Below, one piece after another: positions 17,074 to 43,250 of a DNA stretch of 64,000 bases. Both the position numbers and the translations under genes were made by a program. Position 1 is the stretch's first letter, and every line of letters starts with the position of its first letter. The DNA is from Oceanobacillus caeni (lineage in GTDB: Bacteria; Bacillota; Bacilli; Bacillales; Amphibacillaceae). The stretch covers positions 1 to 64,000 of the forward strand of contig NZ_JAHHXM010000004.1 in assembly GCF_019037185.1 (NCBI RefSeq). Direction: 5' to 3'. Under the pieces are notes generated by a model. It saw only the letters and a program-made list of their open reading frames with translations, was not told the origin of the DNA and searched no databases.

Positions 17074-17330
17074 CCGATATTCCTGGAGTGAATGCTGATA
17101 TCCCAGGATAAGTGCCGATATTCCTGGAGTGAATGCTGATATCCCAGGATAAGTGCCGATATTCTGGGGATGAATGCTGATATCCCGAGATTAGTACCGA
17201 TATTCTGGTGGTGAATGCTGATATCTCGGGATAAGTGCCGATATTCCGGTGGTGAATGCTGATATCTCGAGATTAGTGCCGATATACCTGGGGTGAATGC
17301 TGATATCTCGGAATGAATACTGATATTTCA
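17074..17330. repeat. 41-bp tandem array (about 6 copies) made of two ~20-bp half units
   Basis: Repeat starts (CCGATATTC or its variant) fall at 17074, 17115, 17156, 17197, 17238, 17279 and a last partial near 17320: an exact 41-bp period. Each unit contains two related halves, CCGATATTCCTGG...GTGAATG and CTGATATCCCAGGAT...AGTG, offset by 21 and 20 bp. CCAGGA and TCCTGG can pair, so a transcript could form serial hairpins. Copies diverge mainly at the CC(T/G)GG and CC(C/G)AG positions. The period is not a multiple of 3, and no frame is conserved. The array lies inside the fad/icm gene cluster. Confidence 0.9.
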
Positions 17331-17459
17331 GAAAGGTGGCCGCCCGAAGACCTTTTTAGCAGATATAGGCCCTGTACTAGAAGTCTATTTGGGCTTCGGA
17401 TAAAAATACAACAACCTTACCAAATGAACGAATAGATGTAATTTGAAAGGAAGTAAAAA
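17331..17459 (+). other. Rest of the acd-meaB intergenic region
   Basis: It holds a weak long-range stem (CCGAAG near 17344, CTTCGG near 17395) and a TGAACGAAT half-site at 17425 that resembles half of the FadR box. No terminator with a T-run and no convincing promoter is visible, so read-through from the acyl-CoA dehydrogenase genes into meaB is possible. Confidence 0.4.
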
Positions 17460-18401
17460 ATGCATGAAATAGTAGAACGGATAAAAAACAAGGAAGTGCG
17501 TGCATTAGCAAGAGCAATCACAATGGTAGAAAATGACCATTCTGACAAATTAGAACTTCTTAGTGATGTCTTTTCTTTACAAAAGCAAGCAATATATGTA
17601 GGGTTAACAGGCTCTCCGGGTGCTGGGAAAAGTTCCCTTGTGAATCGGTTAATCTCACAGATTCGAAAGGAAGGAAAAACGGTTGCTGTCATAGCGGTTG
17701 ACCCAACAAGCCCATTTAGTGGAGGAGCATTACTAGGGGATCGGGTTCGAATGAATGAACATTTTATCGATGATGGTGTGTACATAAGAAGTATGGCAAC
17801 ACGTGGTAGCTTAGGTGGACTTGCGCGGGCAACTAAAGATGCCGTTCGAATATGTGATGCGTTTGGATTTGATGTTGTCATTGTTGAAACCGTTGGGGTA
17901 GGCCAATCGGAATTAGACATTATGAAAATAGTAGATACAACAGCTGTTGTCTTAACTCCTAATAGTGGAGATGTTCTACAAATTTTTAAAGCAGGAATCA
18001 TGGAAATCGCTGATCTATTTGTTATAAACAAAGCGGATTTAGATGGGGTTAGAAAGCTGAAGCGGTTATTAAGGGAACTTGTCATGATGACTGCAACGGA
18101 AGATCATATGGTAGAGATTGTGAAAACAATAACCACCCAAAACGAAGGTATAGATGAATTATGGGAGAAAATCAAGAAACATCACGATTATTTATATTCG
18201 ACACAAGAAGGAAAACGAAAAAGGAATGCTCAATTCGAATTAGAGGTATACGAGTTAATTCGAGAAGAAATTTGGCGCGAGGTGAAAACCTTTATTGAGC
18301 ATGATCATGACAACCTTCCAGCAATGGAATCAAATAATGATCCGTACAAGCAAGCGAAAGATTTATTAGTGAAGTGGAAGGAGGCCAAAAAGATTGAATA
18401 A
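17460..18401 (+). CDS. meaB: MeaB/ArgK family G-protein chaperone
   Basis: 313 aa SIMIBI-class GTPase that gates cofactor loading and protects B12-dependent acyl-CoA mutases. Walker A is [37 protein letters not shown] is the switch region typical of MeaB. VETVGVGQSELDI and NKADL complete the G motifs. The C-terminal arm is helical. It overlaps the TetR gene by 8 bp. The mutase in this cluster, IcmF, already carries its own fused G-domain, so this free MeaB is either an extra chaperone or serves a methylmalonyl-CoA mutase encoded elsewhere. Confidence 0.93.
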   Translation: MHEIVERIKNKEVRALARAITMVENDHSDKLELLSDVFSLQKQAIYVGLTGSPGAGKSSLVNRLISQIRKEGKTVAVIAVDPTSPFSGGALLGDRVRMNEHFIDDGVYIRSMATRGSLGGLARATKDAVRICDAFGFDVVIVETVGVGQSELDIMKIVDTTAVVLTPNSGDVLQIFKAGIMEIADLFVINKADLDGVRKLKRLLRELVMMTATEDHMVEIVKTITTQNEGIDELWEKIKKHHDYLYSTQEGKRKRNAQFELEVYELIREEIWREVKTFIEHDHDNLPAMESNNDPYKQAKDLLVKWKEAKKIE

Positions 18402-19005
18402 AAATAAAGTGGTATCAAACGTAAAGGACCAGGAACTTATAAAAAAACGACGGGACCAAATGATAAAAGGCGCTATTACGTTATTTAAAGAAAAGGGCTT
18501 TCATCGAACAACAACAAGAGAAATTGCAAAAGCATCTGGTTTTAGTATTGGAACACTTTATGAATACATTCGAACGAAAGAAGATGTCTTATATTTAACT
18601 TGTGATGCGATATATGAACAAGTCCGAGAACGAATAGAGAATGCTTTTGAATTAGAGCAGCCTTCCCGCGAGAGTTTAGTGAAAGTTATTGAATCCTATT
18701 TTTATTTAATGGATGAATTACAAGAGGAAATTTTAATTCTATATCAGGAAGCGAAGTCTTTAAAGCAAGAAACAAGAGGTTATATTTTGCAAAAAGAGCG
18801 GTATATGGTGAATATACTGGAAAAGGTAATTCTAAATTGTATTCCTGAACAAATAACGAAGCAAGAAGCGATTATTTTAGCGAATAATATTTTTGTTCAA
18901 GGTCATATGTGGGGATTTCGCAGATGGATTTTACAAAAGCAATTTTCACTTGAAGAGTATATTCATTTGCAAATCAATGCGATTTTAAAGGCCGCTGAAA
19001 AGTAA
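18394..19005 (+). CDS. TetR-family transcriptional regulator
   Basis: 203 aa. The N-terminal TetR helix-turn-helix is IKGAITLFKEKGFHRTTTREIAKASGFSIGTLYEYIRTKEDVLYL (about 25-70). The C-terminal ligand domain is helical and Gln/Glu-rich. It starts at a TTG (18394) that overlaps the end of meaB; GGAAGGAGG lies upstream and fits this start. Located between meaB and icmF, it is a good candidate local regulator of the acyl-CoA operon, probably sensing an acyl-CoA. Its HTH differs from B. subtilis FadR (YsiA), so it may not be the protein that reads the FadR-like boxes. Confidence 0.88.
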   Translation: MNKNKVVSNVKDQELIKKRRDQMIKGAITLFKEKGFHRTTTREIAKASGFSIGTLYEYIRTKEDVLYLTCDAIYEQVRERIENAFELEQPSRESLVKVIESYFYLMDELQEEILILYQEAKSLKQETRGYILQKERYMVNILEKVILNCIPEQITKQEAIILANNIFVQGHMWGFRRWILQKQFSLEEYIHLQINAILKAAEK

Positions 19006-19023
19006 ATGGAAGGGGGAAATACA

Positions 19024-22000
19024 GTGGAACAAGTAGAAGTATACCGTCCGAAAAATCCTGTTCGTTTTGTAACTGCGTCAAGTTTATTTGATGGGCATGA
19101 TGCATCCATTAATATCATGAGAAGAATTATCCAAGCTAGTGGAGCAGAAGTAGTTCATCTTGGTCATAATCGCTCTGTAGAAGAAGTAGTTCACGCAGCA
19201 ATTCAAGAAGATGTTCAAGGTATTGCGATTTCATCTTATCAAGGTGGGCACGTGGAATATTTTAAATATATGATTGATTTATTAAAGGAATTGGGAGCGA
19301 GCCACATTAAAGTGTTTGGTGGCGGTGGAGGAGTAATTATCCCAAGAGAAATTAAAGAATTGCATGACTATGGGGTTTCTTGGATTTTCTCACCTGAAGA
19401 TGGTCGTAAGTACGGACTGCAAGGTATGATTAACAAAATGCTAGAATTATGTGATTTTATACCGCCAATTGATTTGGAGAAAGACATGGAGAAACTTCTT
19501 CAAGGTGATCGAAATGCAATGGCTAAATTTATTACATTTGTTGAATCGGAAGAAACAGACCTGGAAGAAAAGCAACGTGTAGTAAACAAGCTAAAAGAAA
19601 AAGCGGGACCAAATACACCTGTTCTTGGAATTACCGGTACTGGTGGAGCGGGAAAAAGTTCCTTAACGGACGAATTAATTCGCCGATTTATGAATGAAGT
19701 GTTAGATAAAAAGGTAGCAATTATATCCATTGACCCGACGAAAAGGAAAACGGGTGGGGCCTTACTAGGTGACCGAATCCGTATGAACGCTATTTTTAGC
19801 GACCGTGTTTATATGCGTTCCTTAGCGACAAGAGATTCTAGAACGGAATTATCCAAAGCGATTCAAGATGTCATTGATGTTGTCAAAGCCTCTGGATTTG
19901 ACTTTATCATTGTGGAAACGAGTGGAATTGGGCAAGGAGACGCCGCTATAACCGACATTACAGACCTATCCATGTATGTCATGACGTCTGAATACGGGGC
20001 ACCGACCCAATTAGAGAAAATTGATATGATTGACTATGCAGATTTTATCGTGATTAATAAATTTGAACAAAAGGGTTCTGAAGACGCCTTAAATCAAGTT
20101 CGTAAACAATATGAACGTAGCCGTATGTTATTTCAACAAGAGAAGGAAAAATTCCCTGTCTTTGGTACGATTGCTAGTCAGTTTAATGATGAAGGAACCA
20201 ATGCATTATTTGCTGCTATAATCGACACGCTGAATGAACGTTATGAATGGAATGTGTCTGTTGATTTTGAAAGGAATCGAATTGCCGAAAAACATAATCG
20301 TATTATCACCAATGATCGTCGCCACTATTTACGTGAGATTGCAGATTACGTTCGTAAATATCACGAAGATGCTGAAAAACAAAGTACAATTGCTCGTAAA
20401 TTATATCAATTAGATGGAGCAATAAAGACACTCGAATACGAAGAGGCAACGGAAATATGGAATAAAAATCAGGACAACGTGGAAGAAATGGCAGCGGCTA
20501 CAGAAGTTAAATCCTTTAAACGTGAAGATGTTTTAACTAATTTAAAACAGTTATTGGACCGTTATGAAGAGCAATTAAATCCAACTGCGAAGAAGCTTTT
20601 AGATTCTTGGGATGCTTTAAAGGATAGATATAGTGGAGACAAAATGACTTTCCAAGTACGTAATAAAGAGATTGAAATGGATATTACGACAGAATCTTTG
20701 TCTGGTCTTAAGATTCCTAAAGTTGCTTTTCCGAAATATCAAGATTGGGGAGAGCGATTAATGTGGATGCTAAAGGAAAATGTACCTGGCGCATTCCCAT
20801 TCACTGCTGGGGTGTTCCCGTTCAAACGAGAAGGGGAAGATCCTACCAGACAATTTGCTGGGGAAGGAACACCAGAAAGAACAAACCGAAGATTCCATTA
20901 TTTATCTAAGAATGATGATGCCAAACGGCTATCTACTGCATTTGATTCCGTAACATTGTACGGAGAGGATCCAGCTTACCGCCCAGATATATTTGGGAAA
21001 GTTGGAGAAAGTGGTGTGAATGTTTGTACTTTAGATGATATGAAAAAACTTTATGCTGGTTTTGATTTAACAGATCCACTAACCTCTGTATCGATGACGA
21101 TTAATGGTCCAGCACCAATCATTTTAGCGATGTATTTTAATACAGCGATTGACCAACAGGTGGATAAATTTAAAGAGGAACAAGGTCGTGAGCCTAGTAA
21201 AGAAGAATTAGAAAAAATTAAAGCAGATACATTATCCGTTGTCCGTGGTACGGTTCAAGCAGATATTTTGAAAGAAGACCAAGGACAAAATACATGCATT
21301 TTCTCTACGGAATTTGCGCTTCGAATGATGGGAGATATTCAACAATATTTCATTGATAAGAATGTGCGAAATTATTACTCTGTTTCGATTTCTGGTTATC
21401 ATATTGCAGAAGCGGGCGCAAATCCAATTACTCAGTTAGCATTTACACTAGCAAATGGTTTTACGTATGTAGAATATTATTTAAGCAGAGGAATGGATAT
21501 TAATAAATTTGCACCGAATTTATCCTTCTTCTTCTCAAATGGTCTAGATCCGGAATATACCGTTATTGGAAGAGTGGCAAGAAGAATTTGGGCGATTGTT
21601 ATGCGTGATAAATATGGAGCGAATGAACGTAGTCAAAAGTTGAAATATCACATCCAAACTTCCGGACGTTCCTTACATGCCCAAGAAATTGACTTTAATG
21701 ATATTCGAACAACTTTACAGGCGTTACTTGCAATCCAAGATAATACAAACTCACTGCATACGAATGCCTATGATGAGGCAATTACAACGCCAACGGAAGA
21801 GTCGGTTCGTCGTGCCATGGCAATTCAAATGATTATTAATAAAGAGTTTGGCTATACGAAAAATGAAAATCCACTTCAAGGTTCATTCATTGTAGAGGAG
21901 CTTACAGATTTAGTAGAAGAAGCGGTTTTACAAGAATTTGAACGAATGAATGATCGTGGTGGGGTACTAGGAGCAATGGAACGCCAATACCAACGTGGAA

Positions 22001-22350
22001 AGATTCAAGAAGAGTCCCTTTACTATGAGAGTAAGAAACACTCTGGTGAGCTTCCAATTATTGGTGTAAACACATATTTAAATCCAAACCCAACATCGGA
22101 TGAGGAAATTGATTCCATGGAACTTGCGCGTGCCACTCAAGAAGAAAAACAACATCAGATTGTCGAATTGAAAAAATTTCAAGAAAAACATCAAGCACAA
22201 GCACCAAAAGCATTGGAACGGTTAAAAGAAGTAGCAGCTTCTGGAGGAAATATTTTTGAAGAACTAATGGATACCGTAAAAGTAGCTAGCCTCGGCCAAA
22301 TCACCAAAGCACTATACGAAGTTGGCGGACAGTATAGAAGAAATATGTAA
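19024..22350 (+). CDS. icmF: Fused isobutyryl-CoA mutase IcmF (B12-dependent)
   Basis: 1108 aa fusion protein. The order is an N-terminal B12-binding domain (about 10-145; SLFDGHDAS with the cobalt-ligating His near residue 25, then SSYQGGH and GGGGG), a MeaB-like G-domain (about 200-430; [34 protein letters not shown]), a linker, and the TIM-barrel mutase (about 560-1090). The barrel shows [30 protein letters not shown], a signature of isobutyryl/butyryl mutases rather than methylmalonyl mutases. It interconverts isobutyryl-CoA and n-butyryl-CoA using adenosylcobalamin, feeding valine-derived carbon into beta-oxidation. I chose the GTG at 19024 because GGAAGGGGG precedes it; an ATG at 19006 directly abuts the TetR stop. 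Confidence 0.95.
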
Positions 22351-22420
22351 GGAATATAATGTAATAATGGCAAAAGGTGAAAAGTTTGAAAGAATACAGG
22401 GTACATGATCTCGATTATTA

Positions 22421-22453
22421 AAGTTGAGAAGAGTTATTTTCTCAACTTTTTTA
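22421..22453 (+). terminator. Terminator of the fadF-icmF cluster
   Basis: AAGTTGAGAA stem with TTCTCAACTT, followed by TTTTTTA. Confidence 0.85.
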
Positions 22454-22507
22454 TGTTAAAATAAGGCATAAACCATACAAGTTTGATTATAATGTTAGGT
22501 ATGTCTC

Positions 22508-22536
22508 TTGAAAAGCATATTGCATTGTAGTTAAAT
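22508..22536 (+). promoter_or_regulatory. Weak candidate promoter for rpoE
   Basis: TTGAAA (22508-22513), 17-bp spacer, TTAAAT (22531-22536). The -10 is poor, so this is tentative. Confidence 0.3.
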
Positions 22537-22553
22537 ATAGTCATTACAAGTAC

Positions 22554-22579
22554 ATGTTCAAAAAGGAGGAACTTTTTGA
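22554..22579. repeat. Short copy of the GTTCAAAAAG palindromic element
   Basis: GTTCAAAAAG, 6-nt GAGGAA loop, CTTTTTGAAC: a perfect 10-bp inverted repeat in the rpoE leader. It has the same terminal sequence as the larger elements near murA. It also contains an AAAGGAGG ribosome-binding-like sequence ahead of a 7-codon TTG frame, which may be coincidental. Confidence 0.65.
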
Positions 22580-22649
22580 ACATCGTCTACAATGGTTAAA
22601 TCTAGAAGGCATTTAAGCCATCATTATACAAGTCAAAGGAGTGCTAACC

Positions 22650-23195
22650 GTGAGCTTAAAAGATTATAGCCCGGAACAAATTGAAAATATGTCAATGTTA
22701 GAATTGGCAAGTATTATCTTAAAAGAAGAGAAAAAAGCCCTACACTTCAAGGACGTTTTTGACAAAGTTGCAGAAGTAAAAGGTTTTTCTGAAGCCGAAA
22801 AAGAAGAAAAAATAGCACAATTTTATACAGATTTAAACGTCGATGGACGATTCACAACATTAGGTTCTAATATGTGGGGATTAAAACGTTGGTACCCAAT
22901 CGAGCAAGCAGACGAAGAAGTACATACTCCTAAGAAGAAAAAGAAAAAGGCAACGAAGAAAAAGCGTAAAGAAGAGGAAATTGATGAAGAAGAGGACTTC
23001 GAGGAGGAAGACGATCTTCTTGAAGATGAAGACATCGATGAAGTTTTCGACGACGAAGAGGAGGATCTGGACGAAGATGATGAGGAATTAGATCCAGACT
23101 TAGACGAATTCGATGACTTTGATGAGGATGAAGAAGAGATAGATGAAGAATTTGACGATGAAGAGCTTGATGACGAAGAAGAGGAAGAGAAATAA
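22650..23195 (+). CDS. rpoE: RNA polymerase delta subunit
   Basis: 181 aa. The folded N-terminal HARE-type domain (about 1-90; IAQFYTDLNVDGRFTTLGSNMWGLKRWYP) is followed by a Lys-rich patch (KKKKKKATKKKRK, about 98-112). The rest is a nearly pure Asp/Glu disordered tail. Delta binds core RNA polymerase, displaces nucleic acid and speeds recycling. I take the GTG at 22650 because AAAGGAG overlaps the earlier in-frame GTG at 22641. The Lys block before the acidic tail is the element that contacts DNA in B. subtilis. The position next to pyrG is conserved. Confidence 0.93.
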   Translation: MSLKDYSPEQIENMSMLELASIILKEEKKALHFKDVFDKVAEVKGFSEAEKEEKIAQFYTDLNVDGRFTTLGSNMWGLKRWYPIEQADEEVHTPKKKKKKATKKKRKEEEIDEEEDFEEEDDLLEDEDIDEVFDDEEEDLDEDDEELDPDLDEFDDFDEDEEEIDEEFDDEELDDEEEEEK

Positions 23196-23211
23196 GCGGT
23201 GGGATTTTACT

Positions 23212-23233
23212 ACCAGACTTTTTGAACAACCTC
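23212..23233 (-). repeat. Isolated end of the GTTCAAAAAG element after rpoE
   Basis: ACTTTTTGAACAACCTCT is the exact reverse complement form of the AGAGGTTGTTCAAAAG left end at 32463. Together with 22554-22579 it flanks rpoE. Confidence 0.5.
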
Positions 23234-23245
23234 TAAAAACAATTA

Positions 23246-23287
23246 TTGACTTTTATTGAACTAGTGAGTACAATTTTACTTGGGCTC
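23246..23287 (+). promoter_or_regulatory. pyrG promoter with GGGCTC start site
   Basis: TTGACT (23246-23251), a 17-bp spacer, TACAAT (23269-23274), then GGGCTC at 23282, 7 nt beyond the -10. B. subtilis pyrG transcripts start with GGGC and gain extra G residues by slippage when CTP is low. The same start context is present here. Confidence 0.85.
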
Positions 23288-23303
23288 TATTTGACAGGAA
23301 CAT

Positions 23304-23346
23304 AGCGTCTCCCTACTGGTTTTAAGGGAGGCGCTTTTTATTTTTT
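23304..23346 (+). terminator. pyrG attenuator terminator (CTP-responsive)
   Basis: 11-bp stem AGCGTCTCCCT/AGGGAGGCGCT with one G-U pair, followed by TTTTTATTTTTT. The 5' arm contains CTCCCT, which can pair with a poly-G 5' end produced by reiterative initiation at low CTP and so form the antiterminator known from B. subtilis pyrG. Confidence 0.85.
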
Positions 23347-23514
23347 ACTCAGTAACCTTAGAATCTGTATAGATCATTTTGGCTTTCCGTGTTTTTCTCA
23401 TAATAAATACAGGGAAGGTTTTTTGATTGATTGCAGATTTTTTCCATTAGAACTCATTTTATTGTTTTATTAGTACAAAATAGGTTTAAGTAACAACCTA
23501 AGAAAGAGGGATGA

Positions 23515-25125
<1,611 letters not shown>

Positions 25126-25131
25126 AAATAG

Positions 25132-25165
25132 TCAAAGCCCTGAACAAATTGGTTCGGGGTTTTTG
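25132..25165 (+). terminator. Terminator of pyrG
   Basis: GCCCTGAAC ... GTTCGGGGT stem followed by TTTTGTTT. Confidence 0.8.
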
Positions 25166-25200
25166 TTTAGGTTAAGATGTAAAAAATTAATTCGATACTT

Positions 25201-25265
25201 GTGCTCATGAATTCGTTAATCGAAGAGACTAATCTAGTAATCACGGCATTAACCCATTGATTTCT
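25201..25265. repeat. Degenerate 21-bp repeats (about 3 copies)
   Basis: AATTCGTTAATCG at 25210, AATCTAGTAATCA at 25231 and AACCCATTGATT near 25251 keep a 20-21-bp spacing. They resemble the units of the 48.35-48.5 kb array (AATTCGTTAATCGTG). Confidence 0.5.
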
Positions 25266-25308
25266 TGAATACCAGATTTTAAAGTGATTTTAAAACCAAA
25301 ATTTTCTA

Positions 25309-25337
25309 TTGTAACTAAATTACTAACGTGATAGTAT
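25309..25337 (+). promoter_or_regulatory. Promoter of the MFS transporter gene
   Basis: TTGTAA (25309-25314), 17-bp spacer, TAGTAT (25332-25337), giving a leader of about 270 nt before the ATG. Confidence 0.45.
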
Positions 25338-25361
25338 AAGTACAAATAAAACCTTTAATTG

Positions 25362-25445
25362 GGTCCAGAGAGGCCAAAAGGGTGCACGGAATAGAAGTAT
25401 GCTTTCTTATGCCCTTTTGTCTCTGAGACAAAAGGGCATTTTTAA
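25362..25445 (+). promoter_or_regulatory. Leader attenuator with mutually exclusive structures before the MFS gene
   Basis: A 14-bp terminator hairpin (ATGCCCTTTTGTCT, 3-nt loop, AGACAAAAGGGCAT; 25409-25440) is followed by TTTTTAAT. The upstream segment AGAGAGGCCAAAAGGGTG (25367-25384) can pair with TGCCCTTTTGTCTCT (25410-25424), the 5' arm of that terminator, giving an alternative antiterminator. I do not recognise the aptamer. The short stretch GGGTGCACGG is only loosely T-box-like and no T-box stem I is visible. Confidence 0.55.
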
Positions 25446-25496
25446 TATATTTGATTTAATCTCTTTTAAATCAAAGTTCTGTGAGACTTGAAAAGA

Positions 25497-25525
25497 GAAT
25501 GGAAATGTTAGATAAGTTTCCATTC
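25497..25525 (+). other. Second hairpin in the MFS leader
   Basis: GAATGGAAA and TTTCCATTC arms around an 11-nt loop, without a T-run. It lies about 85 bp before the ATG. Confidence 0.4.
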
Positions 25526-25610
25526 CCTCCCTTGCTTCACAAATGGAGTAGGAAGGTTTTATCCTTTCCTTTCTAAAAAAAACACATGATACGAATATGG
25601 AGGGAAAACG

Positions 25611-28501: not shown

Positions 28502-28521
28502 TTCTCACTTGGGACGTGATA

Positions 28522-30907: not shown

Positions 30908-31155
30908 AGAAGTTGTTCAAAAAGTCCGGTGAAAATGACACTTCGACGTTTCTAGTTGGCAAGACTCACCGTTCCTCACGTATTAACTGAATACGTTCCG
31001 GTAACGGGAGCTGCGCCTCCTTGAACTGCGACGCACAGGACGTGCTAGTGTCGGCGTTGCAACAAATCTTTACGGTGGGGCGAGTAATCGGAGCCCCAGG
31101 ACGTTGCGATTTAGCCGACCTCGGTCCTTTTCATCCTCCTTTTTGAACACGCATA
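30908..31155. repeat. MITE-like element, copy 1 (about 250 bp) upstream of murAB
   Basis: Left end GAAGTTGTTCAAAAAGTCCG followed by GTGAAAATGAC. Right end CTCGGTCCTTTTCATCC followed by TCCTTTTTGAACACGCA. The ends are imperfect inverted repeats (GTTCAAAAAG / CTTTTTGAAC with TGAAAA / TTTTCA inside). The interior is GC-richer than its surroundings and carries no frame with a ribosome binding site. The element fills most of the ywjH-murAB gap. Confidence 0.75.
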
Positions 31156-32457: not shown

Positions 32458-32461
32458 TGAA

Positions 32462-35178: not shown

Positions 35179-35241
35179 TTCCATTTGCGATAAGTACAAT
35201 GAATGGGGTAGTTCCTAATTAAAGAAATTTTACGGATCCCC

Positions 35242-35270
35242 TTGCAAACAGGAAACGACACTGGTATAAT
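35242..35270 (+). promoter_or_regulatory. Strong sigma-A promoter of rpmE2
   Basis: TTGCAA (35242-35247), 17-bp spacer, TATAAT (35265-35270). It produces a leader of about 120 nt. Confidence 0.75.
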
Positions 35271-35276
35271 TCATAG

Positions 35277-35398
35277 ATGTGAGTTTAGATATTCGAGTCT
35301 TAAATAGGTATTTTTAAAAAGGAACTTTAGTACTTTTTTAAAACCCTTTTAAAATAACTCTGTTTCCAAGGGATTCAGGGCATAAGGAGTGGAAAAGC
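35277..35398 (+). promoter_or_regulatory. Leader of rpmE2, possible autogenous L31 leader
   Basis: About 120 nt between the promoter and the start codon, with A/T-rich pairing segments (AAAAAGGAACTTTAGTACTTTTTTA) and a CCAAGGGATTCAGGG block. Ribosomal leader RNAs for L31 are described in Firmicutes. I cannot confirm a match to that motif from the sequence alone. Confidence 0.3.
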
Positions 35399-35644
35399 AT
35401 GAAAGAAGGAATTCATCCTGAGTACAGAAAAGTAGTATTTCTAGATACTAGCTCAGACTTCAAATTCTTGACTGGTTCAACAAGATCTTCTAATGAAACA
35501 ATTGAATGGGAAGATGGTAACACTTATCCTTTAATCAAAGTTGAAATCAGTTCTGATTCACACCCATTCTACACTGGTAAACAAAAAGCTGATAAAGTCG
35601 GCGGACGTGTGGATCGATTCAAGAAGAAATATAATATGAAATAA
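35399..35644 (+). CDS. rpmE2: Ribosomal protein L31, type B (zinc-independent)
   Basis: 81 aa. It has the type-B pattern [28 protein letters not shown], the insertion [31 protein letters not shown], and no cysteine at all, so it cannot form the CxxC zinc site of type-A L31. B. subtilis carries the zinc-binding RpmE at this locus and the type-B YtiA elsewhere under Zur control. Here the zinc-free form occupies the housekeeping position after rho. GGAG lies 9 nt before the ATG. Confidence 0.95.
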
Positions 35645-35710
35645 GAGGGAAGCTCTATCTTAATGAGTGGAACTAGCTTGATAAAACCGGAATAGTTCAT
35701 TCCAACTATC

Positions 35711-35754
35711 AAAAACAGGCAAAATACCATTATTTTGCCTGTTTTCGCTTTTTT
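35711..35754 (+). terminator. Terminator of rpmE2
   Basis: AAAAACAGGCAAAATA / TATTTTGCCTGTTTT stem followed by CGCTTTTTT. Confidence 0.88.
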
Positions 35755-35845
35755 GTAGAAAAATTTCCATAAAGATTCTTTAAATTAACCTAATTCGTGG
35801 TAAACTAATAAAGGTTTGTAATAATAAAAAGTGAGGTTCTCTACC

Positions 35846-36466
35846 ATGTATGTAATGAAACAAAGTGGCTGGATTGAAGTAATATGTGGCAGTATGTTTT
35901 CTGGGAAATCGGAAGAACTCATTCGCCGAGTTCGTCGTGCTACTTATGCTCATTTAACGGTGCAAGTGTTTAAACCTGCTATAGATGATCGTTATAATAA
36001 AAAGGATATCGTTTCGCATAATGGAATGTCTACCGTAGCCCAACCAATTAACCAGGTAGAAGAAATTTTTGACCACATCAATCCGAATGTCGATATTATT
36101 GCTATCGATGAAGCACAATTTTTTGATAATTCTATCGTTGAAGTTGCGGAACAGCTAGCAAATAAGGGTGTTCGTGTGATAGCAGCCGGATTAGATACAG
36201 ATTTTCGTGGGGAACCATTTGATCCGATGCCTGAATTAATGGCTGTTAGTGAATCGATTACAAAATTAAATGCCATTTGCCCAATATGTGGATCACCAGC
36301 GAGTCGCACGCAACGCCTGATTAATGGCAAACCAGCTTCTTTCGATGATCCCATTATTCTTGTTGGGGCATCTGAATCCTATGAACCAAGATGTCGTCAT
36401 CATCATGAAGTCCCAAAAAAGCCGATAAATAAAATATGGAAAAGCATGTTAGAGGTAACGGAATAA
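35846..36466 (+). CDS. tdk: Thymidine kinase
   Basis: 206 aa. It phosphorylates thymidine to dTMP for salvage. P-loop is [18 protein letters not shown]; Walker B/lid is [11 protein letters not shown]. The lasso region has [16 protein letters not shown] with CxxC and [10 protein letters not shown] with Cys-His, forming the structural zinc site. [19 protein letters not shown] is the usual N-terminus, and the ATG at 35846 has AGTGAGGTT about 9 nt upstream; the GTG at 35831 falls in that site. It converges with the cdaR-like gene. Confidence 0.96.
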
Positions 36467-36473
36467 AGCATTT

Positions 36474-36528
36474 AAAAAGAACCCTATAGCGTAGACGTTA
36501 AAAATGTCTGGGCTATAGGGTTCTTTTT
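36474..36528. terminator. Bidirectional terminator between tdk and the cdaR-like gene
   Basis: AAAAAGAACCCTATAGC / GCTATAGGGTTCTTTTT with inner AGAC/GTCT pairing. A-run and T-run on the two sides serve both strands. Confidence 0.9.
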
Positions 36529-36552
36529 AAAGGGCTCTCAAATTTAATATAA

Positions 36553-37638
36553 TTAAAGTTGCTCGTAAATCCATATTGCGACTTGTAATGACAAAGCATC
36601 TTCAAATTTCCTGGGATCTAAACCTGTTTGTTCACTAATCTTGTTAAGTCGATAGATTAATGTATTTCGATGGATAAATAATTCTTCGGCTGTTTTTTGA
36701 ATATGAAGGTTATGATTGAAAAATGCCTTCAAGGTTTTTATGTTTTCTTCGTTTACTTTTTCCAAAATACGCTTGGCAAACCTCTTGGATAATTGCTGAT
36801 TCATTCGGTAAATTAATACCTTTGTTTCTAATTGAGCATAGGATACAATTTCCTTATTACGATCGCTAACTTTCAAGGCCAAATCACAATCTAAATAGGA
36901 CTCCCTGAAATCTTTTAATTTATCAAAGGGTAAGCTATAGGACAAACGAAATTGAATATGTAAACCTTTTAATACCTGATAAACAGTAAGAATTTTTTTA
37001 TCGATCTCTGCTTCACTTATGTTTGTAAATGCAATACATAACTTATTGACATGAATAACTCCAATGAATCCCCTTTTAGGATGGCATGCATTTTCTAAAC
37101 TTTCTATAAGGGTTTTATTGGATACAATAGAGGAACGCTCTTCTATTTGAATGATGACTGTTACGAATGTAGGAATGAATTCAAAATCTAGTTTACCAAT
37201 TAAACGATCTATATCATGATAAGATAGTTCTTTCTTTAATAATTGCTCTAGAAGCATATCTTTTGTTGTTTGTTTCCATTCTGACTGTGATGCGATGTAC
37301 TTTTGATTAATCATTAATTCGGTCATCATTTTAACGAGTTCACCAATTTCACTAATTTTCTTTGGATCCCCAGTTATTCCGATAACCCCGATTATCTTCT
37401 CTTGAAAAACAATAGGCAGATTTATCCCAGGTTTAGCCCCTGATAATTTATCTTCTGGGTAAATAATTATTGTTCTACCATCTTTTATAACTTCTAATGC
37501 GCCTGCATGTATTTGATTTAGCCTCGATGGGTCACAGCTGGCGATAATCTTTCCGTTTCTGTTCATGATATTGACATTTCGATCTACTCTTAGGGAAGCC
37601 TCTTGAACAATGGTTTCTGCCATTTCTCTTGTTAACAT
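36553..37638 (-). CDS. CdaR-like sugar-diacid/glycerate-pathway regulator
   Basis: 361 aa. The N-terminal putative sugar diacid recognition domain (about 1-130: MLTREMAETIVQEASLRVDRNVNIMNRNGKIIASCDPSRLNQIH..., LPIVFQEKIIGVIGITGDP) is followed by a GGDEF-like/CdaR middle. The C-terminal PucR-type HTH is QKTAEELFIHRNTLIYRLNKISEQTGLDPR. CdaR activates D-glucarate, galactarate and glycerate genes in E. coli. Divergent orientation to the glycerate kinase operon supports local activation here, probably with glycerate or a related acid as effector. Confidence 0.87.
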   Translation of the reverse strand: MLTREMAETIVQEASLRVDRNVNIMNRNGKIIASCDPSRLNQIHAGALEVIKDGRTIIIYPEDKLSGAKPGINLPIVFQEKIIGVIGITGDPKKISEIGELVKMMTELMINQKYIASQSEWKQTTKDMLLEQLLKKELSYHDIDRLIGKLDFEFIPTFVTVIIQIEERSSIVSNKTLIESLENACHPKRGFIGVIHVNKLCIAFTNISEAEIDKKILTVYQVLKGLHIQFRLSYSLPFDKLKDFRESYLDCDLALKVSDRNKEIVSYAQLETKVLIYRMNQQLSKRFAKRILEKVNEENIKTLKAFFNHNLHIQKTAEELFIHRNTLIYRLNKISEQTGLDPRKFEDALSLQVAIWIYEQL

Positions 37639-37715
37639 ATCGACGCATCCTTTACAATTGGCAAAATAAACAAAATCTATTACAACTATTCTTACTATTT
37701 CGTATGTTATAACGA

Positions 37716-37744
37716 TGGATTATTTTCGTCAAGATTTTTATAAT
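37716..37744 (+). promoter_or_regulatory. Candidate activator-dependent promoter of glycerate kinase
   Basis: TGGATT, 17-bp spacer, perfect TATAAT (37739-37744). The weak -35 would suit dependence on the divergently encoded regulator. Confidence 0.35.
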
Positions 37745-37782
37745 GAATATATTGAAGGCGTTTACTTTGCGGGGTGAGGTTA

Positions 37783-38943
37783 ATGAAGGTTGTTATTGCA
37801 CCAGATTCTTTTAAAGGAAGCCTAAATGCTATCGATGTGGCGAGTTCTATTAATCAAGGGGTGAAGAAGGCTTACCCGAATGCGGAGACGACATTAGTTC
37901 CTGTTGCGGATGGTGGCGAGGGGACGATGAGTACTTTAATAGCAGCAACAAATGGTATAACAAAAAAGACAACCGTAATTGGTCCTTTGGGTGAGAACTT
38001 GGAAGCAGAATATGGAGTACTTGGGGATCATAAGACCTGTGTGATTGAGATGGCAACTGCATCAGGGCTAGATTTAGTACCTAAAGAAAAACTATCTCCT
38101 TTGCGGGCGACAACATATGGAACAGGGCAACTCATTAAGGACGCATTAGATAATGGGTATAGATCTTTTATTCTTGCTGTTGGAGGATCTGCGACAAATG
38201 ATGGTGGAATGGGTATGCTTCAAGCACTTGGATTGAAGGTTTTAGATCGAGATGGGAATGAGATCGGATTTGGTGGAGGTGAGCTGGGAAAGGTTCACTC
38301 TATCGATTTACAGACATTGGATAGGCGAATCCCAGATTGCTCCTTTTTAATCGCATCCGATGTACAAAATCCTTTCATAGGACCAAATGGAGCCTCCCAT
38401 GTCTTTGGGCCACAGAAAGGTGCCAAACCGAATGAAGTGAAGATCCTAGACGATAACCTTAGCCATTGGGCGGATGAAATTGAAAAGGCAACGGGAATTC
38501 ACCTTCATAACCTGCCCGGTGCAGGTGCTGCTGGGGGGATAGGAGGAGCATTTCTAGCCTTCTTTCCGGCAAAGATGAGGCCAGGTATTGAAGTAGTTTT
38601 GGAATATTGCCAGCTAGATAAAGCTTTAGAAAATGCTGATGTAGTGATTACTGGAGAGGGAAAGGTAGACTTTCAAACCGCTTCGGGAAAAACCCCATTA
38701 GGAGTTGCAAAGGCAGCCATGAAGAAAAACGTTCCAACCATTATTGTAGCAGGTTCGGTGGGGGAAGGAATCGATGTTCTTTATGATTATGGAATTGTTA
38801 GTATCAATAGTATTGCTAAAGAACCAATGACTTTAGAGGAATCCATGAATCATGCTGCGGAGTTACTTGCTTACAGTTCCGAACAAGTTATTCGTTCCTA
38901 TTTCTATCTAGCAACGAAGGGGAGGTCATTTCTATGCAAATAA
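37783..38943 (+). CDS. Glycerate 2-kinase (GarK/GlxK family)
   Basis: 386 aa type-1 glycerate kinase. MKVVIAPDSFKGSLNAIDVASSI, VADGGEGTMSTL, GTGQLIKDALDNG and ILAVGGSATNDGGMGML are the family signatures, with LPGAGAAGGIGGAF and VITGEGKVDFQTASGK in the C-terminal half. It phosphorylates D-glycerate, in this family to 2-phosphoglycerate, which enters lower glycolysis. The ATG at 37783 follows GGGGTGAGG closely; a GTG at 37774 is possible. It overlaps the permease gene by 10 bp, giving a tight operon. Confidence 0.93.
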   Translation: MKVVIAPDSFKGSLNAIDVASSINQGVKKAYPNAETTLVPVADGGEGTMSTLIAATNGITKKTTVIGPLGENLEAEYGVLGDHKTCVIEMATASGLDLVPKEKLSPLRATTYGTGQLIKDALDNGYRSFILAVGGSATNDGGMGMLQALGLKVLDRDGNEIGFGGGELGKVHSIDLQTLDRRIPDCSFLIASDVQNPFIGPNGASHVFGPQKGAKPNEVKILDDNLSHWADEIEKATGIHLHNLPGAGAAGGIGGAFLAFFPAKMRPGIEVVLEYCQLDKALENADVVITGEGKVDFQTASGKTPLGVAKAAMKKNVPTIIVAGSVGEGIDVLYDYGIVSINSIAKEPMTLEESMNHAAELLAYSSEQVIRSYFYLATKGRSFLCK

Positions 38944-40043
38944 AAGCTGCGATTGAAAAAGTTCCGGGTGGATTAATGGTCGTGCCACTTTTATTGGGTG
39001 TAACATTAAACACGATTGACCAAATGCATTTATCTGCAGTGATGAATGTTCTAAAATGGCTCGGGGCACCACAGACTGAAGAAGGATATTATGAGTTTTT
39101 ACGAATTGGTGGGTTTTCCCAAGAACTTTTTAAAGATAGTGCTTTAGTTCTTATCGCACTTTTTCTATTTTGTGTTGGAAGTCAAATGAACCTAAAAATG
39201 GGACAAAGGGCTTTGAAAAAGGGTGCAATCGTAACAACAACAAAATATTTATCTGGTTTAGCAATCGGAATGGTATTCGGATATTTCTCTGATCCCATGA
39301 ATGGAATATTTGGGCTATCAACACTTGCACTCATTGCGGGGATGACAAATAGTAATAGTGGAATGTATGCGGCACTTACCGGCCAATACGGTAATCGTTC
39401 GGATGTAGGAGGGTTATCCCTACTTGCGATAAATGATGGACCTTTCTTAACGTTAGTTGGTTTAGGAATTTTAGGGACATCTTTCCCAATGGTAGCATTT
39501 CTTTCTGTGTTATTACCAATTGGTATTGGAATGCTGTTAGGTAACCTTGATCCAAAGATTCGTGAATTCCTGGCGCCAGGTGAAAACCTTCTTATCCCAT
39601 TTTTTGCATTTTCCCTGGGTGCTGGAATGAATCTGGCTAATTTCTTTAATCCCGAAGTACTTGTTGGGGGATTAGTTCTATCAGCACTTACCTTTTTTGT
39701 AACTGGTGGAATGGGAATTCTTGCGTTTAGATTATTTGGTGAAAGAAGTTATATAGCGCCTATTGCGGAAGCGTCAACGGCAGGAAATGCTGCAGCAACA
39801 CCAGCAGCAGTAGCAGCTTCTGCATCAGTTGCAGTCAGTACAGGTGCAATGACCGCTGCAGAGTTTGAGGCAATTCAAGCGATTGTACCAATTGCCACAG
39901 CACAGATCTCTATTTCAACCATTACTACAGCACTCCTTTGTCCGCTGGCTGTCATTATTATGGATAGATATCATAAAAAGAAAGGGTTGGATCCAACTAG
40001 AGAGGACCTTGGATTAAAACAAAAGAATAAGGAAACAGCATAA
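38934..40043 (+). CDS. 2-keto-3-deoxygluconate permease family transporter (KdgT-like)
   Basis: 369 aa, about 10 hydrophobic helices. The start MQIKAAIEKVPGGLMVVPLLLGVTLNT is diagnostic of KdgT. TLALIAGMTNSNSGMYAALTGQYG and SLLAINDGPFLTLVGLG fit the same family, as does the Ala-rich EASTAGNAAATPAAVAA segment. KdgT imports 2-keto-3-deoxygluconate by proton symport. In this operon with glycerate kinase and a LarA homologue the real substrate may be another short hydroxy acid. GGGGAGGT lies about 8 nt before the ATG. Confidence 0.88.
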   Translation: MQIKAAIEKVPGGLMVVPLLLGVTLNTIDQMHLSAVMNVLKWLGAPQTEEGYYEFLRIGGFSQELFKDSALVLIALFLFCVGSQMNLKMGQRALKKGAIVTTTKYLSGLAIGMVFGYFSDPMNGIFGLSTLALIAGMTNSNSGMYAALTGQYGNRSDVGGLSLLAINDGPFLTLVGLGILGTSFPMVAFLSVLLPIGIGMLLGNLDPKIREFLAPGENLLIPFFAFSLGAGMNLANFFNPEVLVGGLVLSALTFFVTGGMGILAFRLFGERSYIAPIAEASTAGNAAATPAAVAASASVAVSTGAMTAAEFEAIQAIVPIATAQISISTITTALLCPLAVIIMDRYHKKKGLDPTREDLGLKQKNKETA

Positions 40044-40048
40044 TTATC

Positions 40049-40078
40049 TTACAATCTAATTTGTAAGCGCTGTAGTAT
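40049..40078 (+). promoter_or_regulatory. Candidate promoter of larA overlapping a cre site
   Basis: TTACAA (40049-40054), 18-bp spacer, TAGTAT (40073-40078). TGTAAGCGCTGTAG (40062-40075) agrees at the first ten bases with the CcpA operator TGTAAGCGCTTACA and covers the spacer and part of the -10. This position would suit carbon catabolite repression. Confidence 0.45.
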
Positions 40079-40113
40079 ACTAGATATAGAATGACAACAA
40101 GGTAGGGATATAA

Positions 40114-41376
40114 ATGAAAAAAGAATTATTATATGGAAGAGAAGGGCTTATACTAGATTTACCTGATCAATCTTTAGAAATTGAACCGAAAAATCTAAAG
40201 AAATTAGATAATGAAAAAGAAGCGATACGCAAGGCATTAAGAAATCCGATAGGGACAGCAGCTTTAAAGGAATCGGTACAATCAACAGATACGGTGTCGA
40301 TAGTTATTAGTGACATTACAAGACCTACTCCAAATCATATATTAGTACCCTTATTAATAGAGGAATTAGATCATGTACCGTTGGAGAACTTCGTCATCAT
40401 CAATGGAACTGGGACACATCGAGAACAAACACGAGAAGAATTTATCCAAATGCTTGGGGAATGGATCGTTGACAATATTCGAATCGTAAATAATAACTGC
40501 CATGATAAGGATACACTTGTCAAAGTTGGAGAAAGTAGATTCGGTTGTGATGTTTATTTAAATAAAGATTATGTGGAATCAGATTTTAAAATTGTAACAG
40601 GATTCATTGAACCACACTTCTTTGCTGGTTTTTCCGGTGGGCCTAAAGGAATCATGCCAGGAATCGCGGGATTAGAAACAATCATGACATTCCATAATGC
40701 TAGAATGATAGGAGATCCCTTAGCAACTTGGGGAAATATGGAGAATAATCCAGTTCAGGATATGACACGTGAAATTAATGGTATGTGTAAGCCGGACTTT
40801 ATGTTAAATGTTACGCTTAACCGGGAAAAGGAAATTACAAATGTCTTTGCTGGTGAGCTTTATGAGGCACATAATGTTGGTTGTGAATTCGCAAAAGAAC
40901 ACGCTATGTATCGATGTGAGGAGAGATTTGATGTCGTTATTACGTCAAATTCTGGTTACCCACTTGATCAAAACCTGTATCAAGCGGTAAAAGGGATGAG
41001 TGCAGCGCATAAGATTGTGAAAAAAGGCGGCTCGATTATTGTTGCTTCGGAATGTTCAGATGGACTCCCGGATCATGGTAATTTCTCTAAGATTTTCGGA
41101 ATGGCCAATAGCCCGCATGAATTATTAGAAATGATTAACGATCCAAAATTTAAGATGATGGATCAATGGCAAGTTCAGAAGCAAGCAGTTATTCAAACAT
41201 GGGCTGATGTTTATGTTTATTCCAAATTAACGGATGAACAGGTTAAAGGTGCCATGCTTAAGCCAACACATAATATTGAAAAAACATTGGAACTGTTAAA
41301 AGAAACGTATGGAGAAGATATGACAGTTGCCGTCCTTCCGCTTGGTCCATTAACGATTCCTTATGTGGAAGAGTAG
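40114..41376 (+). CDS. LarA-family nickel-pincer hydroxyacid racemase
   Basis: 420 aa. It keeps the residues that in Lactobacillus plantarum LarA bind or work with the nickel-pincer nucleotide: His102 (GTGTHREQT), His168 and Lys178 (EPHFFAGFSGGPKGIMPG), His194 (TFHNARMIG). Each is offset by exactly 6 from L. plantarum His108/His174/Lys184/His200. The family racemises or epimerises 2-hydroxy acids. Cofactor genes larB, larC and larE are not in this window. The context of glycerate kinase and a sugar-acid permease points to a glycerate- or aldonate-type substrate rather than lactate; that is inference. It has its own candidate promoter. Confidence 0.85.
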   Translation: MKKELLYGREGLILDLPDQSLEIEPKNLKKLDNEKEAIRKALRNPIGTAALKESVQSTDTVSIVISDITRPTPNHILVPLLIEELDHVPLENFVIINGTGTHREQTREEFIQMLGEWIVDNIRIVNNNCHDKDTLVKVGESRFGCDVYLNKDYVESDFKIVTGFIEPHFFAGFSGGPKGIMPGIAGLETIMTFHNARMIGDPLATWGNMENNPVQDMTREINGMCKPDFMLNVTLNREKEITNVFAGELYEAHNVGCEFAKEHAMYRCEERFDVVITSNSGYPLDQNLYQAVKGMSAAHKIVKKGGSIIVASECSDGLPDHGNFSKIFGMANSPHELLEMINDPKFKMMDQWQVQKQAVIQTWADVYVYSKLTDEQVKGAMLKPTHNIEKTLELLKETYGEDMTVAVLPLGPLTIPYVEE

Positions 41377-41443
41377 ACAATATATCAAACGGGTAGTATG
41401 AAAAAGGACTGGATGAATCGAATATGGTAGTTTAAGCTTAAGG

Positions 41444-41473
41444 AAAAGAGGGCGGATAATAGCCCTCTTTTTT
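41444..41473 (+). terminator. Terminator of the glycerate/larA operon
   Basis: AAAAGAGGGC / GCCCTCTTTTTT with an 8-nt loop. Confidence 0.88.
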
Positions 41474-41628
41474 GGTTTGTGTAGGGAGATAGAGCTCCTT
41501 GTTTCAAAGCGTGGCAGAAAAATTTTGTAACGAATTAACACATTTTGGGATATATAGCTGATTAGACTTTTTTAGAAGCTTGTTGGTAATCAACTGATAA
41601 TTATCCTACATACGAAAGGAGGTAACTT

Positions 41629-42126
41629 GTGGATAAAGACAATATATATCAGGATTATGCGGACTTTATTTTTAGATATTTATTAACCCTGACAAATGAT
41701 GAACATGCTGCCGAGGAATTAACGCAAGAGACGTTTTATCAAGCAATTAAGTCCATTGATAACTTTCATGATAATGGAAAGGCGAAATTTTCCACGTGGT
41801 TATGTGCCATCGCAAAAAATGTTTGGCTGCAAGAAGTTAATCGTACAAAGAAAAAGCACCAGCTTGTGAACTCACTGAGCGATGAAAGTACTTTATTTTA
41901 TAATCTTGAAGAAGAATATTTTAGAAATGAAGACAAAATTAACTTTTTTAAAAAGGCACACCAGCTTAGTGAAACAAAACGTGAAATACTTTATCTCAGG
42001 TTATTAGGTGATTTATCTTTTAAGGAAATTGGCTCCATTTTCGGAGAAACAGAAAACTGGGCACGAGTAACATTTTATCGTGCCAAACAACAAATACGAA
42101 AGGGTGATACGAGTTATGAACCATGA
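41629..42126 (+). CDS. ECF-type RNA polymerase sigma factor
   Basis: 165 aa with only regions 2 and 4. Region 2 is YADFIFRYLLTLTNDEHAAEELTQETFYQAIKSIDNF plus FSTWLCAIAKNVWLQEVNR. Region 4 is LSETKREILYLRLLGDLSFKEIGSIFGETENWARVTFYRAKQQIRK. The start is a GTG (41629) with a strong AAAGGAGGT. The stop overlaps the next gene, a membrane anti-sigma, by 11 bp. The pair probably answers a cell-envelope stress. ECF subgroup and target promoters are unknown. Confidence 0.92.
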   Translation: MDKDNIYQDYADFIFRYLLTLTNDEHAAEELTQETFYQAIKSIDNFHDNGKAKFSTWLCAIAKNVWLQEVNRTKKKHQLVNSLSDESTLFYNLEEEYFRNEDKINFFKKAHQLSETKREILYLRLLGDLSFKEIGSIFGETENWARVTFYRAKQQIRKGDTSYEP

Positions 42127-42799
42127 AGTTTTTAAGGATTTAGTACCGAGCTATATGGAAAACTTAACGAGTGAAGAGACCAATAGACAAATGGAAAAAC
42201 ATATGGAGCAATGTGTGGATTGTCAAGAGTATGTAAAGGAAATGCAGGAAGACTTTCTGATAGAACGTACCAATGAACAAAAAGATCAGAAGAGGAATAT
42301 CGATTATTTTAAAAAGATACGATCCAAAAATAGGAAAAAGATCTTCACCGTTGCAGGATCACTACTAGCGCTTTTTCTTATGATATCCATTGGTTATTAT
42401 TTTCTATTTGTCCACATGTGGATAGCGGATGAAAATAACGTGCAAACAACTGTTCAAAAACAAAATAATATAGCTACGCTGAACTTTAAGTCAAAAAAGG
42501 ACAACCGTTATCTTTTAGCTATGGAACAACAAGAGAATCAGGATTATACCGACTTGATTATTATTTATGAAAACTGGAATATCTTTGCGGATAAAAACTG
42601 GAATATCCACTCTGAGTTGGCCATTGCCCAACAAGGCGGAACTGACATTACGTATACTTTCTTAGATGAAAACACATTATTACTGCCAAATGGTAAGGAA
42701 AAGAAACTAACAGACGAAGACAAAATAACCATTCAATATAAAGACAGTACGGAAGAAATACGATTAAAGGATTTGTACCGTGCAGGGAGTAATCATTAA
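42116..42799 (+). CDS. Membrane anti-sigma factor with zinc-finger (ZAS) domain
   Basis: 227 aa. N-terminal anti-sigma domain: MNHEVFKDLVPSYMENLTSEETNRQMEKHMEQCVDCQEYVKEM with the H-x3-C-x2-C zinc motif. One membrane helix lies near 77-100 (VAGSLLALFLMISIGYYFLFVHMW), and the rest is a polar extracytoplasmic domain rich in acidic residues. The start lies inside the sigma gene's end; AAAGGGTG is spaced about 9 nt. It would hold the preceding ECF sigma at the membrane until stress-induced proteolysis. Confidence 0.88.
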   Translation: MNHEVFKDLVPSYMENLTSEETNRQMEKHMEQCVDCQEYVKEMQEDFLIERTNEQKDQKRNIDYFKKIRSKNRKKIFTVAGSLLALFLMISIGYYFLFVHMWIADENNVQTTVQKQNNIATLNFKSKKDNRYLLAMEQQENQDYTDLIIIYENWNIFADKNWNIHSELAIAQQGGTDITYTFLDENTLLLPNGKEKKLTDEDKITIQYKDSTEEIRLKDLYRAGSNH

Positions 42800-42831
42800 A
42801 TAATGAAGGTTAGGCTATCGTGAAAGACTCA

Positions 42832-43250
42832 TTCGGCCACTCATCCCATCGATGAGTGCCCTTTTTCTTTGGTTATTTCCGACTTCGGTCACTCATCCCA
42901 TCCATGAGTGCCCATTACCTTTGGCTTTTTCCGACTTCGGTCACTCATCCCACCTATGAGTGCCCATTACCTTTGGTTATTTCCGACTTCGGTCACTCAT
43001 CCCGTCGATGAGTGCCCATTACCTTTGGTTATTTCTGACTTCGGTCACTCATCCCATCGATGAGTGCCCATTACCTTTGGTTATTTCCGACTTCGGTCAC
43101 TCATCCCATCGATGAGTGCCCTTTACCTTTGGTTATTTCTGACTTCGGTCACTCATCCCATCGATGAGTGCCCTTTTTCTTTGGTTATTTCCGACTTCGG
43201 TCACTCATCCCATCGATGAGTGCCCATTTCCTTTGGTTTTTCCCGGATCA
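42832..43250. repeat. 52-bp tandem array, 8 copies, each with a hairpin
   Basis: CACTCATCC recurs at 42838, 42890, 42942, 42994, 43046, 43098, 43150 and 43202: an exact 52-bp period. Each unit holds CACTCAT, a 7-nt centre and ATGAGTG. In most copies the centre is CCCATCG, which extends the stem to CACTCATC / GATGAGTG. The centres vary (CCCATCC, CCCACCT, CCCGTCG) while the arms do not. The linker is near-constant (CCCATTACCTTTGG, TTATTTCCGACTTCGG). No open frame is conserved. The arms equal those of the lipL terminator at 141-176. Confidence 0.93.

Follow-up and report, generated by a model that had tools for sequence, protein, structure and literature searches.

The first 64,000 nucleotides of contig NZ_JAHHXM010000004.1 of Oceanobacillus caeni, hereafter the window, contain three tandem arrays and two worn remnants of such arrays, all of them members of families whose arrays are scattered over this genome and those of some relatives. 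All of the sites lie between genes or long open reading frames (ORFs), and the ORFs that overlie the arrays are mechanical, as the original prediction had held when it called the arrays intergenic and without coding character. Two classes are distinguished throughout: class A, made of direct repeats at steps of mostly 19-21 bp, and class B, made of 52-bp units with inverted half-sites (Table 1). The relatives compared are numbered G016, G024, G045 and so on, with one genome per species, and the window genome is G000.

The original prediction gave the three arrays exact periods of 41, 52 and 21 bp. All three are where it placed them, and the word exact is true of the 52-bp array, roughly true of the 41-bp array and only loosely true of the 21-bp array. 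For array A, Tandem Repeats Finder (TRF) reports 17074-17311, period 41, with 5.8 copies, 88% matches, 3% indels and a score of 339, the half-unit steps being 21 bp six times and 20 bp five times. Array B has the tabulated period and copy number, with 93% matches, zero indels, a score of 698 and seven of seven core-to-core steps of 52 bp. Array C is reported at 48360-48492 with periods of 21 and 42 (65% and 72% matches, scores 71 and 127), the last unit to 48515 being assigned by eye; read by eye, it appears to share the class A layout, with GTTAAT as its core. As for the proposed worn relatives, the site at 58.24 kb looks like a convincing class A remnant, its core spacing being matched by 0 of 2000 base shuffles. 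The site at 25.20 kb looks weak: 24 of 2000 shuffles equal its core spacing, and it has 81% identity across 37 bp (E 0.006) to the 48.3-kb array. The range given for the whole feature, 17074-43250, takes in arrays A and B and the remnant at 25.20 kb, whereas the sites named at 48.3 and 58.2 kb fall outside it. A promoter-pattern scan ahead of prfA gave no excess of sites over shuffles.

Table 1. Arrays, remnants and neighbouring signals in the window
Feature	Position	Strand	Character	Placement
Array A	17074..17327	+	12 half-units at 20/21 bp (41-bp pairs); core [CT]GATAT on + strand	28 bp past acyl-CoA dehydrogenase stop, upstream of meaB
Array B	42832..43243	.	7.9 units of 52 bp; half-sites CGGTCACTCAT / ATGAGTGCCC around 7-bp centre	33 bp past ORF without clear function, 200 bp ahead of prfA
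Array C	48360..48515	+	loose 21/42-bp repeat; core TTCGTTAATC	between thiW and tenA (both - strand)
Worn class A remnant	58248..58311	+	three CTGATA cores, steps 22 and 21	past glyA hairpin, before upp
Weak class C remnant	25191..25235	+	two cores 21 bp apart	past pyrG terminator-like hairpin
Terminator-like hairpin	25134..25163	+	pattern match	3' of pyrG, before weak remnant
Terminator-like hairpin	58170..58205	+	pattern match	3' of glyA, before worn class A remnant
Promoter-like site	43392..43421	+	pattern match	ahead of prfA, downstream of array B

The class B unit, as derived from 20 locus consensus units in six genomes, consists of the inverted half-sites TTCGGKCACTCAT-N7-ATGAGTGMCCGAA and a spacer. 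Identity between these loci is 97% in the inner arms, 29% in the 7-bp centre and 30-34% in the spacer, so that centre and spacer are near random while the 52-bp period persists everywhere. Off-period steps are 51 (four), 59 and 87 (two), with two-unit sums of 103, 105 and 108; one split of 4 plus 48 is a spurious overlapping match. The arrays at C25 16094-16726 and C7 65041-65549 of G000 have different spacers and one 87-bp (52 + 35) step each. Within arrays, units picked by core similarity diverge by 2.2% in the inner arms, 9.6% in the spacer and 12.7% in the centre. Because core similarity had guided that choice of units, the comparison was repeated with in-phase units filtered on the spacer only, which gave 2.9% for arms, 10.1% for spacer and 12.0% for centre (p 8e-17); over the two counts, arms diverge 3.5-4.4 times less than spacers. 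Since the low arm divergence holds when units are chosen by spacer only, we conclude that single class B units are under constraint on their arms. This result bears on whether the arrays are neutral minisatellites, that is, slippage products tolerated in promoterless gaps, with period classes inherited by descent. Higher-order repeats, turnover and placement in convergent gaps would all suit such an origin; constraint on the class B arms within and between arrays, with spacer and centre free, and a 52-bp period unchanged after spacer identity has fallen near random do not, and we consider it improbable.

Other 52-bp families have half-sites of their own: AGTCAACCGWGA in G016, a CGGGCACAGAGA-like sequence in G045 and a CGTGA-type dyad in G000. 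The 34 period-52 TRF rows checked include two pairs that each belong to one array; 27 of the rows have a dyad reached by at most 3% of 60 base shuffles, and the seven without one include G016 102330, in which one arm has been lost.

Inverted half-sites may be read at the level of DNA or of RNA, and the original prediction had offered both protein sites and serial RNA hairpins. Strong folding of both strands is seen in class B arrays (mean z -5.2 and -5.6, 23 arrays), as with palindromes in general, and their outer stem pairs lean to pairing (2/28 paired in 17 of 20 loci, p 0.008; 3/27, p 0.05; 1/29, p 0.07), one of them co-varying, as might be expected of hairpins, terminators or mRNA stabilisers; a T run follows two of the class B units in the window. 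The C-G cases at pair 2/28 come from G016, where the half-site is altered on both sides, which a dimer site would also show. Against a function in RNA, the most variable stem pair, columns 4/26, at which both half-sites accept G or T, is paired in five of 20 loci versus 7.8 expected from column composition, and single stem changes to G-U number 18 on one strand and 19 on the other, with no strand preference. Double stem changes number four, of which two are compensatory. T4 is rare after stems (14 of 140 class B units after the + stem, 4 of 140 after that of the other strand), a search of Rfam gave no match at gathering score over the arrays, both worn remnants sit past terminator-like hairpins, and class A on average folds little (mean z -1.3 and -0.9, 36 arrays). 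Because the freely varying stem pair does not stay paired and wobble carries no strand bias, the class B sequences favour a double-stranded dyad site over an RNA hairpin. Hairpins were rejected as the main class B reading, and we think an RNA-level function of the arrays very unlikely. The protein-site half of the earlier claim is supported for class B, in which both half-sites are constrained and the freely varying pair shows no compensation of the RNA type; its hairpin half is disfavoured there.

Class A consists of direct repeats. Among steps of 17-24 bp, a range that leaves multiples (42) and a set of 10-bp steps outside the count, 366 of 376 are 19-21 bp (19 bp, 17 steps; 20 bp, 109; 21 bp, 240), other lengths totalling ten. 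The array at C44 97904-98861 of G000 has 16 core steps of 10 bp, half the usual pitch. In G024, where the core is GATAAA, 54 of 55 steps are 20 bp. Several class A cores in different species pair a GC-rich with an AT-rich block each 20 bp (GATAT, GATAAA and TATAAAAA), an arrangement that would suit intrinsic DNA shape, with phased flexible AT or TA steps bending the DNA without a specific protein. In class B half-sites about seven columns hardly vary from a single base, beyond what shape should need, and this explanation seems to us hardly likely at all. The proposal that unit lengths are whole numbers of DNA turns fits 52 (10.4 per turn) and 21. It fails for strict 20-bp arrays, which at 1.9 turns (10.5 bp/turn) rotate by about 34 degrees per unit on relaxed DNA, and a single helical rule common to all arrays is not supported in the form proposed; given two length classes only, the fit to whole turns is suggestive. 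The rotation makes a pitch set by protein more likely than a plain rule of facing.

In 1.2 Mb of G000, TRF found 25 class A arrays (window included), whose leading periods are 20-21, 40-42 or 82, as well as 11 of class B at period 52; the contigs were long ones named by earlier matches, which biases family density. Across 864 kb of whole contig stretches, 19 intergenic rows scored at least 50, with periods of 20-21 (six), 41-42 (five), 52 (five) and 13, 15 and 16 (one each); four of the six at 20-21 are weak, AT-rich and outside the families. The 43 rows first called coding show the same leaning, with 12 at 21 and 8 at 42; class A arrays of these periods, which keep a frame open, account for part of this and true coding repeats for another part. 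The original prediction would sit badly with periods spread evenly or with arrays unique to this strain; it was refuted on neither count, since intergenic rows favour 20-21, 41-42 and 52, and related arrays are present in other species.

The exact class B dyad occurs 42 times in G000, 64 times in G016, 9, 4, 3 and 2 times in other congeners and 16 times in one other genus, and the reversed pattern, used as a control, occurs zero times in those genomes. At least one match was found in 38 of 98 genomes, the remainder of these having mostly one. Among 397 genomes of the order, a sample that includes three congeners and leaves out G016 and G045, 17 have a match, G000 being the only genome with more than a single match. 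The class A pair pattern occurs 252 times in G000, 272 times in G016, 11-30 times in nine others, including G058 and G076 from other families, and 0-6 times in the remaining 87 of the 98. Twenty 20-kb stretches from five congeners (G024 included) contained zero arrays of either class. Arrays are lineage-restricted and unevenly placed within genomes. In G058 (contig C2, 2547-3102; L230), some 26 units with core AACGGCCCAAGCC make up a 21-bp array about 7 kb from a CTGATAT array. Literature searches returned no description of such arrays in these bacteria; a passage of one report mentions intergenic tandem repeats for Planctomycetota (PMC9426551).

With a crude gene definition, any ORF of 110 aa or more, and gaps of at least 150 bp, the 647 background gaps comprise 427 co-directional, 94 convergent and 126 divergent. 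Class A gaps number 23, 11 and 2 in the same order, and class B gaps 8, 14 and 1. Class B is thus found between convergent genes in 14 of 23 cases versus 94 of 647 (p 8.5e-7; class A, p 0.016), and both classes together are found in divergent gaps in 3 of 59 versus 126 of 647 (p 0.004). These counts establish that arrays avoid divergent gaps and that class B arrays concentrate between convergent genes.

Chromosome position was mapped in G024, for arrays with the GATAAA-type core. Here dnaA is at 3.531 Mb of a 4.276-Mb contig, and neighbouring GCCGATAAA / GCTGATAAA units give 72 matches, 68 on the + strand (3.768-4.005, 0-0.026, 0.202-0.205 and 0.279 Mb) and 4 on the - strand (2.941-2.945 Mb), with zero between 0.279 and 2.941 Mb, all 72 having been listed. 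A broader pattern, with 303 matches on + and 20 on -, agrees in position among the matches listed. By eye the matches form 21 loci, once pairs about 3 kb apart are merged. GC skew has the expected sign at four sampled points and across 3.79-3.93 Mb. If the contig is circular, the GATAAA arrays are all on the leading strand and no more than about 1.02 Mb from dnaA, which supports origin proximity in this one relative. The same genome (contig C4) has two perfect duplications, with copies back to back and about 2.85 and 2.96 kb long, at approximately 3834090-3839790 and 3897279-3903205 (L298 and L303), the first of which begins inside an array, and array pairs about 3 kb apart recur on the contig. 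The duplications look like assembly joins across long arrays, so that array counts in G024 are probably inflated. In G000, contig C44 has eight of the 16 arrays in 864 kb (p 0.005, for stretches picked after looking); four of the eight are in its first ~96 kb, a stretch with synteny to the part of G024 that is rich in arrays. The region at about 97-164 kb of C44 has few matches to the compared 150 kb of G016 and 140 kb of G024, yet is rich in class A, and its first part has weak GC skew.

The gap upstream of prfA, selected because G000 bears an array there, contains arrays of about 20 or 52 bp in nine of 28 congeners. Those of 52 bp are in G000 and G016, with unrelated half-sites; those of about 20 bp are in G024, G017, G003, G005, G013, G026 and G010, for which TRF gives 39, 100 and 200 and cores are about 20 apart by eye. 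Cores in other congeners include GCGCATA, CCTATAAAAA and GCGGAA. Gaps of at least 150 bp hold an array in 34 of 453 cases in G000, 20 of 129 in G016 and 5 of 65 in G024, and by this informal comparison the eight of 27 other species with prfA-gap arrays are more than expected. Conserved gaps, a list that excludes the prfA gap because its upstream ORF has no match, gave in a first count three of 45 shared between G000 and G016 (p 0.014); p was 0.49 for G000 and G024 (31 gaps) and 0.15 for G016 and G024 (41 gaps). Of the three shared gaps, only the one at 76 kb has class arrays in both genomes, class B in each with diverged spacers; the other two contain repeats that are coding-like or AT-rich. 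A recount by eye restricted to class arrays (two in G000, five in G016, one shared of 45) leaves the sharing non-significant (p about 0.2 by hand). In the gap of array A, G016 has, by eye, about one class B-like unit instead.

Gain and loss of arrays between close relatives is what might be expected under the main rival explanation, in which the arrays are selfish or enzyme-made, a recombinase or transposase recognising the half-sites and making or spreading units of fixed length with no need of a gain to the host. One genus spans genomes with hundreds of core pairs to none, locus-specific spacers are copied inside each array, and higher-order repeats indicate local amplification. Moreover, tyrosine-recombinase core sites have inverted 11-13-bp arms about a 6-8-bp centre, with matching centres in partner sites, and the 11-7-11 class B dyad fits this geometry. 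However, inside class B arrays the centre is no less variable than the spacer (12.7% versus 9.6%), which argues against recombination through matching centres. The sole intact Y1 transposase of G000 is in a 2,254-bp locus, cut by the contig end, with no exact CACTCAT or CTGATAT core on either strand; the surroundings of two Y1_Tnp fragments were not checked and other transposase or recombinase families were not searched. Array B found no match in phage and plasmid collections, and array A, searched in plasmids only, none there, BLAST being a program that masks simple repeats; a plasmid or phage origin was rejected on these searches. We regard enzyme-made arrays as a serious but doubtful alternative.

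The explanation we place first, at about an even chance, is that the arrays are tandem binding sites for predicted sequence-specific DNA-binding proteins, set at a fixed pitch in gaps past gene ends. The class B unit would be a dyad site for a dimer, with half-sites of 11-13 bp about a 7-bp centre and one dimer every 52 bp, or about five turns; the class A unit would be a direct-repeat site for a monomer, or for one protomer every 20-21 bp, or about two turns. Both the binding of protein and protein-protein contact along the DNA are inferred. The purpose may be chromosome organisation or topology, as proposed for the bacterial interspersed mosaic elements (BIMEs) of E. coli, a role suggested by origin proximity in one species together with placement in convergent gaps; the gaps that hold arrays would seldom have two promoters.

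Several observations weigh against binding-site arrays of this kind. The preference for convergent gaps could be mere tolerance, the mapping relative to the origin is of G024 only, and a replication-strand bias of class A was not found in G000 (10 leading, 12 lagging) or G016 (5 and 4). The nearly strict 20-bp pitch of class A in G024 is off the whole turn count, the comparison of arms with spacers covers class B only, and the outer stem pairs of class B lean to pairing. Nineteen of the 28 congeners are without an array at the prfA gap, and most gaps with an array in G000 or G016 have none in the other genome. A broader and more tentative proposal, which we think rather unlikely and the more so for the non-significant sharing of gaps, is a satellite-like system in which pitch is fixed and sequence exchangeable: lineage-specific DNA-binding proteins or recombinases would keep 20-21- or 52-bp arrays in gene-end gaps, favour the origin-proximal part of the chromosome and, in at least one species, the leading strand, and swap sequence families as species diverge, much as in eukaryotic satellite DNA and its binding proteins. 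Were pitch rather than sequence selected, the arrays would give direct access to a protein lattice that organises the chromosome in Bacillaceae. Any genome rich in arrays would supply its own bait with dozens of sites, and the prfA gap, with different arrays or none at one place, would serve as a natural series for function and turnover.

Among known systems, repetitive extragenic palindromic (REP) elements and BIMEs come nearest in placement. Gyrase, IHF or Pol I binding is a criterion for them. The parts of two reports consulted describe them as dispersed, mostly intergenic palindromic units, often clustered, in species-specific families (PMC3733652, PMC2817692), mainly between co-directional and convergent ORFs (PMC3733652); likewise, 56 of the 59 arrays assigned to a gap are in convergent or co-directional ones. 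In contrast, the 20-locus class B profile has, by eye, no conserved GTAG or CGTC tag beside the arms, no repeat-flanked Y1 gene of the REP-associated tyrosine transposase (RAYT) type was found in G000, the G-T stem-pairing pattern of REPs, which points to RNA, is absent (18 versus 19 by strand, with pair 4/26 below chance), and units keep a strict 52-bp pitch in one register. The word Firmicutes is absent from the text of PMC3733652. REP/RAYT membership was rejected on the missing tag and the lack of an array core at the intact Y1 locus, and the best reading is that the arrays are placed like REP/BIME elements but are not REP members.

Three further systems share a feature with the arrays. The mycobacterial interspersed repetitive units and variable-number tandem repeats of mycobacteria are dispersed intergenic tandem repeat families, many of about 50 bp, and variable-number minisatellites differ in copy number between strains of a species; here, however, there is a conserved core, a free spacer, inverted half-sites and a second class at 20-21 bp. 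In plasmid iteron and partition-site arrays a single protein occupies adjacent direct repeats spaced about two turns apart, whereas the present arrays are at many chromosomal loci and none of the genes flanking them in the window is rep or par. Clustered regularly interspaced short palindromic repeats (CRISPR) have a repeat plus spacer of about 50-60 bp, with distinct spacers between near-identical repeats; spacers here are about 90% alike within an array.

Three structured RNAs were also matched by Rfam in the window. They are a thiamine pyrophosphate (TPP) riboswitch ahead of thiW (49156-49268, - strand), a PyrR binding site ahead of a major facilitator superfamily (MFS) transporter gene (25348-25445, + strand) and a Bacillaceae-1 RNA (31032-31133, - strand) that scores barely above the gathering score.

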